Below are positions 2 through 17,402 of a stretch of 38,084 nt of DNA, in pieces. The notes below the pieces were generated by a model. That model was not told where the DNA came from. It did not search any database and worked only from the letters and a program-made list of their open reading frames with translations. The stretch lies in IMG/VR virus record IMGVR_UViG_3300008050_000115, positions 1 to 38,084 of that record; one strand, 5' to 3'. This DNA is from a virus. Position 1 is the stretch's first letter; each line of letters starts with the position of its first letter. The position numbers and the translations under genes were made by a program.

Positions 2-1054
2 ATACAACAGGAAGAAGCCTCACTAAATATTACCGAGGCAGCCAACGCTATTGACGGAGCCATCGAAGGCAGATTACCCGCCGAAGAGGAAGAAGAGACA
101 GTTTCCTCCAGCGTTTTTATTCCGGGGAGAATCGACGTTGACGAACCGGTTATGCCCGAAGAGGAGCCCGAACCTGTTCCTTTTTTATACACCGAGCAAG
201 TTGGTCTATCGTGGTATGCTATCAATGGTCTTGCTCTCTCTCGCGACGGTATGACGGGGATGCTGGGTATGTCTGGCGGAAACTCCTGTGAGTATGATCC
301 GGACGTTGCTTCCCTCGCTGGTGCCGACTTTACAAATCAATCTTGCCCAGATATTCCAGAAGGATACGATTCCGAGGACCGCGTTATGTTCCTTTGTGAT
401 GACGATATCGGCTTCTGGTCCCCGACTTGGGGCGCGCAACACTACATCGTCCCTGGTCTTGTCGCGGCACAGGTTGTTGCTGAAGGCTTCGTGACCCTTG
501 AAAACGCCGAGGTATGCCAGGTTTCACGCCGGGATCACGACGGCGCCGTTGTTTCCGTCGAGGTGCCGACAGCTCTTTGCGACGTTCCCTCGATGATGGA
601 TGTGGATGAAGCTGGTGATATGGTGTACCTCGTCAATGGGGACGTTTATGCCGTGACCGATACATCCTACCGTCTCCTCGCCTCCGACGCGGGCGACATG
701 ATTGCCTTTGACGAGGTACACAAGGTCGCTGTGGTCGCTTGGGAAGGTGAGACGACTCTCCACGCGCTCGACAACTCCGGAACGCTCCTGTGGCGTGCAA
801 AGGCCGGCGGATCCATTTATGACTTGGAATCCCTCGGTGATCGAGGCGCGGTGGTTGCTCTCGTTTATGAAGATCTCTCACTCCCCGGTTCCTTCGTCGC
901 TTTTGATGGAGCACAGGGTGAGGTATGGGGTGACTCCATCGCGTGGGATGGACTGCTTGACTTCTCAATTGCCCGCGATGCAACCAAGATGATTGTTTCG
1001 GCAAACGGGGCTGTTTATACTTACGACGTTATTATCGAGGAAACAGAAGAATGA
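2..1054 (+). CDS. Beta-propeller-like (PQQ/WD-type) phage protein, 5' end outside window
   Basis: The reading frame is open from the first bases of the window with no in-frame stop, so the gene starts upstream; the ATG at 152 is probably internal. The part seen is about 350 residues. It opens with a Glu/Pro-rich acidic linker (EEEEE, then PEEEPEPVPF). It continues with short repeated beta-strand units such as GDMVYLVNGDVYAV, TTLHALDNSGTLLWRAKAGG and GSFVAFDGAQGEVWG, the pattern of quinoprotein/PQQ-like propeller blades. Several cysteines (NSCEYD, QSCPDI, FLCDDD) suggest an extracellular or virion-exposed protein. Its stop overlaps the start of the next gene (ATGA). No catalytic motif is visible. 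A structural or adsorption role is inferred only from its place next to tail genes. Confidence 0.6.
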   Translation: MQQEEASLNITEAANAIDGAIEGRLPAEEEEETVSSSVFIPGRIDVDEPVMPEEEPEPVPFLYTEQVGLSWYAINGLALSRDGMTGMLGMSGGNSCEYDPDVASLAGADFTNQSCPDIPEGYDSEDRVMFLCDDDIGFWSPTWGAQHYIVPGLVAAQVVAEGFVTLENAEVCQVSRRDHDGAVVSVEVPTALCDVPSMMDVDEAGDMVYLVNGDVYAVTDTSYRLLASDAGDMIAFDEVHKVAVVAWEGETTLHALDNSGTLLWRAKAGGSIYDLESLGDRGAVVALVYEDLSLPGSFVAFDGAQGEVWGDSIAWDGLLDFSIARDATKMIVSANGAVYTYDVIIEETEE

Positions 1055-1413
1055 GAGTAACGAAGAAACAGCTTAGAAGAATCGTCAAGGAAGAGAAGCA
1101 GAAGCTTCGGGCGTTGCAGGAGCGTAGACGTAGCCCTTTTGAAAGAATAGAAACCGGTTCTGCTGTCATCGAGTTCGCCCAGGCATATTGCGGCTTAGGA
1201 GGTGCCGTACAAGGTCAAGTGGACGCGATAATCGCTGTTTACTATAACGGGGGTGGACCAGAAAGCGAAGCGTTTCAGGACACCGTTTACGAACAGAACC
1301 CCAGCGCTATCAACCTTGCCCTCCAGAGGTTACCGCGATATGGTAGCGAAGAAACCGAAGAGATCATCGCTACTCTTAAGATCGCACAGTCGTTGTTCGC
1401 AGAGGGCGGTTGA
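1051..1413 (+). CDS. Small protein with basic N-terminal tag (MRVTKKQLRRIVKEE)
   Basis: A 120-residue protein whose ATG overlaps the preceding stop in ATGA, so it is translationally coupled. Residues 1-15 form a basic amphipathic helix that recurs at the start of the proteins at 1421 and 15792 but not in the rest of those proteins. Residues 25-120 are a mixed, mostly helical domain with a Gly-rich turn (YYNGGGPES) and one cysteine pocket (YCGLGG). I do not recognise the domain. No signal peptide or membrane segment is present. The neighbours are virion genes, so a minor virion or scaffold-associated protein is possible, but that is inference from the tag and position. Confidence 0.7.
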   Translation: MRVTKKQLRRIVKEEKQKLRALQERRRSPFERIETGSAVIEFAQAYCGLGGAVQGQVDAIIAVYYNGGGPESEAFQDTVYEQNPSAINLALQRLPRYGSEETEEIIATLKIAQSLFAEGG

Positions 1414-1420
1414 TTTTTCA

Positions 1421-1717
1421 ATGAGAATTACCAAGCGCCAACTCAAAAGAATCATACGCGAGGAACGAGCTCGTCTTTTCGAAGCTGAAGCCGAAGCCGA
1501 GGTTGAGGGCGAAGATGAAGACGCGGCCGCGTCGAAAGCCGAGTTGAAACAGTTACTTCTACAACTATCCAAGAAAACGCAGGAGCTTAAGCTTTCCAAG
1601 AAGGAAGTCATTCTCATTGGGAAGACCCTGAAAGGTTTGATCGCCGCGGCAGACGCAAGGGATATCGCAAGTAAGGCGCAGCCCTTCCTTACGGCGTTGA
1701 GTAAGCTTATCGGATAA
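1421..1717 (+). CDS. Small acidic helical protein with basic N-terminal tag (MRITKRQLKRIIREE)
   Basis: A 98-residue protein. The start at 1421 is chosen over an upstream ATG at 1253 because the longer frame would run through the preceding gene and because the N-terminus then matches the tag of the neighbour at 1051 (M-R-I/V-T-K-x-Q-L-x-R-I-x-x-E-E). The tag is followed by a low-complexity acidic stretch (about residues 22-37, alternating Glu and Ala then Asp/Glu). A Lys/Leu-rich helical region (about 42-98) could form a coiled coil. The function is not recognised. It is the last gene before a clear terminator, so it probably ends a transcription unit. Confidence 0.7.
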   Translation: MRITKRQLKRIIREERARLFEAEAEAEVEGEDEDAAASKAELKQLLLQLSKKTQELKLSKKEVILIGKTLKGLIAAADARDIASKAQPFLTALSKLIG

Positions 1718-15522: not shown

Positions 15523-15795
15523 ATGAATAACTTTGATGATAGGACAATTCGACGCTACATCCGATCGCTTCTCGAAGGCGATCGCATTGAGGTGATCGAC
15601 GAGGACGATGAAGTCGAAGGTGAAGAGAAGGACGAGGTAAGCGCCGGCGGTGTAGCGGGTGTGACCACGCCTTTGGGCACCGGTCCCCGCTATCCCAACC
15701 CAGAACCACCGGGTCGTGTGCCTCCTTACGTCGCCGCGGGTAAGGCTTTCGGCGACGCAAAACTCGCAAAGAAAAAGAAAAGGAAGAAGAAATGA
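15523..15795 (+). CDS. Small bipolar protein: acidic N-half, Lys-rich C-terminus
   Basis: 90 residues. The N-terminus has DDRTIRRYIRSLLE, a weaker version of the basic tag helix seen at 1051, 1421 and 15792. This is followed by an acidic block (about 24-39), a Gly/Pro-rich middle (GGVAGVTTPLGTGPRYP, PEPPGRVPPYV) and a polylysine tail (KKKKRKKK). No enzyme motif is present. The charge pattern fits a DNA- or capsid-associated protein, which is inference. It overlaps the next gene by ATGA. Confidence 0.6.
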   Translation: MNNFDDRTIRRYIRSLLEGDRIEVIDEDDEVEGEEKDEVSAGGVAGVTTPLGTGPRYPNPEPPGRVPPYVAAGKAFGDAKLAKKKKRKKK

Positions 15796-15980
15796 AAATC
15801 ACGAAGAGACAGCTTAACAAGATAATCAAGAGAAACCTGAACGAGATCCATACCGACGAGTGGGAAGCAGAGGTAACACATCACCAGACGGCGCTTGCGG
15901 ATGCCATCGAACTTGCGATGAATAGTTTAGGGGAAACGTGGGTCTTGAATTTTCTAAGATCTTATACTACTAACTACTAG
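15792..15980 (+). CDS. Small protein with basic N-terminal tag (MKITKRQLNKIIKR)
   Basis: 62 residues, start overlapping the previous stop (ATGA). The first 14 residues repeat the tag found in the proteins at 1051 and 1421, although it lies 14 kb away. The rest (EVTHHQTALADAIELAMNSL, ending RSYTTNY) is one helical segment with no known domain. The function is unknown. Its tag suggests that it shares a destination with the other tagged proteins. Confidence 0.65.
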   Translation: MKITKRQLNKIIKRNLNEIHTDEWEAEVTHHQTALADAIELAMNSLGETWVLNFLRSYTTNY

Positions 15981-16089: not shown

Positions 16090-16905
16090 GTGGCTATTGA
16101 TTTTGATGCAATTAGAAAGAAGCTTAACCAGCTCAACGGAAACAACAGTCGTCGCAATATGATGTGGCGTCCGGAAGAGGGAGAGACGGCGACCGTTCGC
16201 TTGGTTTCTTTTCCCGATAATGACGGGCAACCTTTCAAGGAGCGCTGGTTTTATTATAACATCGGTAACAACCCGGGCCTTTTGACACCGCACCAGTTCG
16301 GTAACCCGGATCCGGTTCAGGAGCTTATCAATAAGCTCCGCGGGGACAACGACACGGATACTCAAAAGGACTCTTACGAGCTCGCGAAGAAGCTGTATCC
16401 TAAGATGCGAAGCTATGCGGCCGTCATTGTTCGTGGCGAAGAAAACAAGGGCATTCGACTTTGGTCGTTCGGTAAGACCGTCTACCAGGATCTATTGAAT
16501 ATCATGCTCGACGAGGATTACGGCGATATCACCGATCCGCTTGAGGGTCGCGATGTGAAGGTTGAGTGCGTAAAGCAACCAGGTCGTAAGTGGGCCATGA
16601 CGTCGGTTCGTCCCCGCCCCAAGAGTACACAGCTTTGCGACGATCCGAAGCAGGCGAAGGAGTGGATCGATAACATTCCCAACCTCGACGACCTGTATAG
16701 TTGCAAGTCGTACGACGAGTTGGAGAAGATTATCAACGATTGGTTGGGCGATGGCGCTCCGACGGAAAGGGCGTTTGACGCTTCGCCGTCTAAGTCGAGC
16801 GCCGCGACCGTTCCCACGACTTCGTCTTCCGACAATAGCGGGACGTCCAGTTCTGCGAAGTATAAGGACTTGGACGACGCGTTTGCCGATCTCGGTACTT
16901 TTTAA
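16090..16905 (+). CDS. gp32-like single-stranded DNA-binding protein
   Basis: 271 residues from GTG 16090 with a very strong ribosome site (AGGAGGT, 16079-16085). The core follows the T4-type gp32 pattern: MMWRPEEGETATVRLVSFPD, then ERWFYYNIG, then KLYPKMRSYAAVIVRGEENKG with LWSFGKTVYQDLL, then YGDITDPLEGRDVKVE. The C-terminus has the usual layout: a Ser/Thr-rich linker (about 230-255) and an acidic tip (YKDLDDAFADLGTF) that recruits partner proteins. It differs from T4 gp32 in lacking the zinc-binding cysteines: the segment after FYYNIG has NPGLLTPHQFGNPDP instead. It would coat single strands for the recombinase, helicase and polymerases encoded nearby. Confidence 0.8.
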   Translation: MAIDFDAIRKKLNQLNGNNSRRNMMWRPEEGETATVRLVSFPDNDGQPFKERWFYYNIGNNPGLLTPHQFGNPDPVQELINKLRGDNDTDTQKDSYELAKKLYPKMRSYAAVIVRGEENKGIRLWSFGKTVYQDLLNIMLDEDYGDITDPLEGRDVKVECVKQPGRKWAMTSVRPRPKSTQLCDDPKQAKEWIDNIPNLDDLYSCKSYDELEKIINDWLGDGAPTERAFDASPSKSSAATVPTTSSSDNSGTSSSAKYKDLDDAFADLGTF

Positions 16906-16921
16906 GAGGCTTGGTTGTTAA

Positions 16922-16947
16922 TCCGCACGGGAGCAATCCCGTGCGGA
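16922..16947 (+). promoter_or_regulatory. GNRA-tetraloop hairpin before the TadE-like gene
   Basis: An 11-bp perfect stem, TCCGCACGGGA paired with TCCCGTGCGGA, closes a GCAA loop. It sits in the 53-base gap between the single-strand-binding gene and the TadE-like gene. No T-run follows, so it is not a standard terminator. Its 3' arm contains the first bases of GGAAGG (16945-16950), the ribosome site of the next gene, so folding could restrict translation of that gene or protect the 3' end of the upstream message. Confidence 0.65.
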
Positions 16948-16958
16948 AGGTTGCGTAT

Positions 16959-17402
16959 ATGAGTAATAGATCTAGGAATAGGAGAGGTTCGCACGCGGTT
17001 GAGTTCGCGTTGCTATTTCCTGTGTTTCTAACTTTGGTGTTTGGTGGGATTGACTATCTATGGTACATTCTCCAGAGATACGAATTAACGGATGCGGTTG
17101 CCTCCGGCTGTAGGACTGGCGCGCTGGTTGGGGACGACCCTTATGCCGACGCTAGCGCGATCGCAGGTCAGAGTATACTCAACAACATTGGTAATAACGT
17201 TGGAGACTGTGGCGTTGGGCTTTGCTCGATTTTTATAGACGAAGCCACGGGTCCGACCGACGACGTTTGGTTGCTTCAGTGTAGCGCCGAGTTGATATAT
17301 GCACCGCTGGTTGGGTTTGTTCCTACGCCTGACCTTTTAACGGCTACGTCGACGCAACCGGTCAAGATACCAGAAGCCGAAGACCTCGACACGTCCTACT
17401 AG
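16959..17402 (+). CDS. TadE-like pseudopilin
   Basis: 147 residues; ATG 16959 has GGAAGG eight bases upstream, whereas the frame opens earlier without a ribosome site. The N-terminus is a short basic leader MSNRSRNRRG, then SHAVEFALLFPVFLTLVFGG, the TadE/TadG signature. Glycine 10 followed by Glu at +5 is the type IV prepilin peptidase site. A transmembrane helix (about 14-38) leads to YELTDAVASGCRTGALVG, also typical of TadE. Four cysteines (51, 84, 89, 108) could form periplasmic disulfides. In bacteria TadE is a minor pseudopilin of the Flp/Tad pilus. It is placed between replication genes, which is unexpected. A role in altering host pili is inference. Confidence 0.7.
   Translation: MSNRSRNRRGSHAVEFALLFPVFLTLVFGGIDYLWYILQRYELTDAVASGCRTGALVGDDPYADASAIAGQSILNNIGNNVGDCGVGLCSIFIDEATGPTDDVWLLQCSAELIYAPLVGFVPTPDLLTATSTQPVKIPEAEDLDTSY

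Follow-up and report, generated by a model that had tools for sequence, protein, structure and literature searches.

The closest described counterpart of the tags reported here is the capsid-targeting sequence (CTS) of phage T4, an N-terminal propeptide of 10-20 residues that is carried by the unrelated proteins IPI, IPII, IPIII and Alt, ends in L/I-x-E and is cut by gp21 (PMC9026906, PMC3012670). T4 gp21 cleaves after L/I-x-E; in IPIII, a CTS of just the 10 N-terminal residues suffices for packaging (PMC9026906), and IPII and IPIII both begin with MKTYQEFIAE followed by A. CTS-like starts on varied internal proteins have been reviewed for T4 relatives (PMC9026906). A further comparison is offered by the giant phages phiKZ, 201phi2-1 and SPN3US, whose prohead-protease propeptides are likewise N-terminal and cut after Glu, some of them at multiple sites, but follow the motif A/S/G-x-E, mostly exceed 100 residues and occur on few proteins (PMC5694885, PMC10052503). 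Short propeptides are known in SPN3US, and its gp53 and gp54 have an identical 15-residue N-terminus (PMC5694885). Proteins injected by phages are the first to meet host defences, and so far their identification has depended on laborious proteomics and has been confined to a few model phages.

The stretch analyzed here (the window) comprises 38,084 nucleotides of IMG/VR record IMGVR_UViG_3300008050_000115. Like the T4 CTS, the tags found in it and in related records are short N-terminal sequences on unrelated proteins, end in L/I-x-E, occur in phages with gp21 and gp23 homologues and mark genes that are not clustered with the head genes. Unlike the T4 CTS, they are unrelated to MKTYQEFIAEA, form at least four exchangeable families, frequently show a tandem second site and, for type A, reach up to 31 genes per genome in whole-record scans, against a handful in T4. 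As to descent from the T4 CTS, by inspection the tags share with the IPII/IPIII propeptide just the L/I-x-E ending and the M-K start; tag D also loosely resembles the T4 CTS in having an aromatic residue before [L/I]-x-E.

Tagged genes in the window and its sister contig

Four tagged genes were recognized, all on the plus strand. The first (1051..1413, 120 aa; ORF start MRVTKKQLRRIVKEE) joins a type-A tag, MRVTKKQLRRIVKE (1051..1092), to an unknown cargo; its candidate sites are V-K-E14 and then L-Q-E24, the L/I-x-E motif thus being met solely at the second site. A homologue that is 52% identical (L127:1474-1827) carries the same tag type with sites I-K-E14 and L-L-E22. The second gene (1421..1717, 98 aa; ORF start MRITKRQLKRIIREE) begins at an internal ATG of the 1253-1717 frame, whose longest ORF would use a GTG at 1253, and its type-A tag, MRITKRQLKRIIRE (1421..1462), offers the candidate sites I-R-E14 and L-F-E21, the latter followed by A. 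The third (15523..15795, 90 aa; ORF start MNNFDDRTIRRYIRSLLEG) bears a type-C tag, MNNFDDRTIRRYIRSLLE (15523..15576), with the candidate site L-L-E18 followed by G, and its end is overlapped by the fourth (15792..15980, 62 aa), which starts with the type-A variant MKITKRQLNKIIKRNLNE (15792..15845) and has the candidate site L-N-E18.

The original prediction, that the proteins at 1051, 1421 and 15792 have a common N-terminal tag, held: the consensus, MKITKRQLRRIIKE, is common to all three, and it occurs beyond chance, as the tag A DNA pattern gave 301 matches in 33 records (chosen for carrying the tag) and its reversed control none. The claim that the protein at 15523 bears a weaker form of the same tag failed, since its N-terminus, RTIRRYIRSLLEG, fits the distinct tag C family (MxLLREYIRxLLxE, or R[RE]YIRxLLxE in shorter form). 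The remaining claim, that the rest of each protein differs, was confirmed for the three type-A proteins, whose bodies show no mutual resemblance; none of the four cargo bodies has a convincing match in Pfam or PHROGs.

Directly downstream of the first two tagged genes lies a T4-type baseplate protein gene (PF12322; 1819..2658, plus strand), and five relatives (L014, L023, L031, L041, L065) have a cluster of tag-A genes in the same position, directly upstream of the PF12322 gene and co-oriented with it. The second pair (15523, 15792) sits in the replication module. Scatter among early genes had been named in advance as a result that would speak against a packaging role; the position of two of the four tagged genes is not counted as such a refutation, because the internal-protein genes of T4 adjoin denV, e and tRNA genes. 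Between the gene at 16090-16905 and a RecA-like gene, this phage sequence also encodes a TadE-like protein (16911-17402; PF07811, E 1.9e-11), a domain of the pilus-assembly type.

A 70 kb contig (G093) matches the window with 99.97% identity over 14.4 kb and with 99.93% over the window's last 2.7 kb, and is a contig of the same virus (about 99.9% identity). The search for further tagged proteins proposed with the original prediction was run, and the first 20 kb of this contig add a run of six consecutive tag-C genes as well as tag-A genes, of which there are at least ten; the DNA pattern for tag A alone gives 12 matches in it. The head module is absent both from the window, which is a fragment record, and from G093, which also lacks the protease, so that the protease of this virus is inferred from its relatives.

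Distribution of tag A

IMG/VR was scanned with a DNA pattern for residues 1-12 of tag A, which returned at least 118 stretches; together with a few matches in bacterial MAGs these yielded 420 distinct tagged N-termini. The tag stands at the protein start and heads at least 389 IMG/VR proteins, which represent 268 unrelated body clusters. Its E14 is 97% conserved, though both the pattern and the regex stopped at residue 12. A single tag A match was obtained in 28 randomly drawn records. Among relatives the distribution is patchy (2 of 20 records, many of them fragments). The statistics given here and below treat related sequences as independent.

Several searches gave little or nothing. A T4-type late promoter, TATAAATA, was found upstream of none of 387 tagged genes, which leaves late expression without support. 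When tag A was compared with cultured phages by tblastn, essentially nothing was recovered, although with queries this short and basic, masking or sub-threshold scores may hide matches. The lone weak match, LR756508, does contain tag-like genes. A PDB profile search with the tagged set returned no match.

Some tag-bearing contigs are filed in bacterial MAGs (L120-L127: NHDW01000006, PBIO01000025, DJKT01000043/44, DUCW01000074). NHDW01000006 and another contig of the PBIO bin also carry S77 and gp23, so that these appear to be phage contigs that were mis-binned, or that belong to a phage of the binned host.

Further tag families, exchange and selection on the peptide

Comparison of homologues of tagged bodies revealed that other N-termini replace tag A. 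Tag C and tag D (MKxLFENWRKxLxE) were then looked for with patterns that left out the Glu, which was nonetheless present in 49 of 58 cases for C (84%) and 118 of 136 for D (87%). Tag B (RMQxLAGIITE), whose search pattern included its Glu, gave 135 hits, nearly all near the start and mostly followed by G or S. Thirteen cargo clusters bear more than one tag type; one cargo, for instance, is found with A, C and D, and another with B and D. That unrelated tags, all ending alike, are exchanged on the same cargo is the strongest indication that they have a common destination, although the destination itself is an inference.

The cargo of type-C and type-D tags includes protein kinases, NUDIX hydrolases, DnaQ-like exonucleases, HD and HAD phosphatases and an amidase, while that of type A is mostly orphan, with few recognizable domains (HNH nuclease, M78 peptidase). 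In a diverged relative (G040; L285, L294, L297) about ten copies of tagged genes start with MTHLLRSLIRETLLLEE or similar; they fall into two families, of which one is of unknown type and one combines a YHGT motif with a leucine-rich-repeat end that varies in length. An ADP-ribosyltransferase reading of the YHGT family was considered and is unsupported, the model being poor (pLDDT under 45); the leucine-rich-repeat end alone is secure. As a separate observation, large ORFs (about 1000 aa) that lie upstream of the tail tube gene (L209, L220, L237, L251, L253, L259) carry MATF[AS]DF[IV]AEF near their start; this recalls the ending of the T4 CTS, although the likeness may be due to chance.

The tags could in principle be leftovers of duplication or recombination of gene 5' ends, i.e., a mobile 5' cassette with no targeting role, and their occurrence in tandem clusters is what would be expected of duplicating genes. 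In homologous pairs, identity is 77% in the tag, 20% in the next 13 residues (the linker) and 48% in the bodies. Where different bodies carry identical tags, an average of 4.7 of the 14 codons differ. Since the tag is conserved while the linker has diverged and the codons differ, selection acts on the peptide. A cassette is at odds with synonymous codons that diverged while the peptide was kept, with an unconserved linker, and with four unrelated tag sequences that have the same ending and are exchanged on cargo; this explanation is therefore regarded as very unlikely.

Candidate cleavage motif, capsid junction and prohead protease

The motif [L/I]-x-E ends every tag family (A, B, C and D), tag A ending in I-[KR]-E. 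Of 268 tag A representatives, 150 contain a second [L/I]-x-E at residues 16-27 (35 in shuffles, maximum 54), whereas further in, beyond residue 27-28 or so, the motif is at background (9-13% per 12-residue window). Unlike the capsid junctions, which continue with A, S or Q, tag A is followed by E after E14 in 68% of cases, and it is mainly there that the second site occurs (66% with E, against 26% with A or S; Fisher 3e-7), an association that persists within loci (permutation p=0.002). The second site is Glu-specific (73 of 99, 8-fold), with D, K and R depleted, and this specificity is not explained by an amphipathic helix.

In the same phages, 22 of 22 capsid propeptides have L-[RK]-E as their last residues, with A, S or Q coming next; the junction was placed by comparison with LTE/A of T4 and not by measurement. 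In the diverged relative G040 the tag MRITESRLRSLVRSEILRE, which ends in ILRE, is followed by A, and the capsid junction reads ILKE, again followed by A. With the window left out, PF03420 (S77, the gp21 family) was found in 25 of 32 tagged records, all at least 72 kb long, and gp23 in 24 of 25 tagged records searched; S77 was also found in 6 of 12 searched tag B records, including all five above 100 kb. Among 9 random records of 70 kb or more, 2 have S77. As the tagged phages are related and share S77 by descent, this co-occurrence is consistent with the proposed role but is not independent evidence for it. Two features of these head genes are noted in passing: the S77 match of G040 (C1:88475-89962) is split in two within one open frame of 573 residues, as if by an insertion (intein-like or another domain), and two tagged phage genomes carry two near-identical gp23 major capsid genes in tandem (L183:9111-12966, L186:9270-13151).

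One alternative is that the tag targets some other phage or host structure, such as the membrane, the replication compartment, a chaperonin or the tail, with [L/I]-x-E being part of an amphipathic helix and not a cleavage site. Tag A does have a basic, helix-like character, with a mean charge of +4.9 for residues 1-13, and in the window some tagged genes adjoin tail or replication genes. Against this stand the Glu-specific second site, which appears mainly where E follows the first and stops at about residue 27, and the presence of the same motif at the end of the sequence-unrelated tags B, C and D and of the capsid propeptide; the alternative is considered unlikely. Another alternative is that tagged proteins belong to the scaffold or core of the prohead, where they are digested and then expelled, the cargo being consumed in assembly and not delivered. 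It draws some support from the degenerate tag-like N-termini of two genes between the protease and the scaffold, near the position of T4 gp67/gp68, which are counted in favour of the propeptide reading as well. The background level of [L/I]-x-E past residue 28 is nevertheless unlike that of a scaffold cut many times, and the kinases, NUDIX hydrolases and exonucleases headed by types C and D are implausible as scaffold, which leaves this reading with very little credence.

A cultured relative

Flavobacterium phage immuto (NC_055915, L319-L321), a cultured relative, was found solely through its capsid and baseplate proteins and not by tblastn with tag A. Several of its genes begin with MKKSQLRxIIKEA, MENFDLKKFLVEN or MKKQILSEQFKRMQxLAGIITE, i.e., three repeated tag types with L/I-x-E, and a prohead protease and gp23 are annotated in the same genome. 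The tagged genes of immuto are mostly annotated as hypothetical, and the tags were unreported in the papers searched. More generally, the tag peptides are absent from the literature searched, most subscription journals having been outside the search. The mechanism is of a known kind, but within that literature neither the tag families and their interchange nor the tandem second site and the scale appear to have a precedent.

Discussion

Taken together, the tags are likely T4-style capsid-targeting propeptides, unrelated in sequence to those of T4 and used on a far larger scale. This reading is inferred from sequence alone, packaging and cleavage being without experiment and virion proteomics lacking. 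What the analysis establishes is the tags, their start-only position, the diversity of their cargo, tag exchange, the [L/I]-x-E ends, a matching capsid junction and a protease gene in most tagged records. The analogy to T4 capsid targeting drawn in the original prediction is accordingly supported on every point that can be tested in sequence, and packaging and cleavage themselves remain inferred.

In the proposed mechanism, late in infection an N-terminal helix of 12-20 residues would dock the tagged protein onto the prohead core, formed by the portal and a gp22-like scaffold. The prohead protease (gp21 family, S77) would then cut after the tag-final [L/I]-x-E, freeing the mature protein inside the head, and DNA would be packaged around the freed cargo, which would enter the cell with the DNA at infection. 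The sequence-unrelated families A, B, C and D would do the same job and be swapped between cargos. Docking, cutting, packaging and delivery, including those of the window's own cargos, are all inferred.

It is intriguing to consider a bolder reading, toward which the balance of evidence leans only slightly: that an effector-delivery system operates in large T4-like phages, most of them uncultured. Through several interchangeable tags, each virion would take up some 20-40 different proteins, among them kinases, NUDIX hydrolases, nucleases and many orphans. If this holds, the tag would by itself predict what a phage injects, much as signal peptides predict secretomes.

The carriers of these tags are large, mostly marine, T4-like phages that place them on dozens of otherwise unrelated proteins. 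Should the tags serve in packaging, the proteins that many uncultured phages inject could be listed from sequence. Hundreds of orphan families would be on such a list, and host enzymes or defence systems may be among their targets. The tags could also be used as a set of packaging handles for phage engineering.
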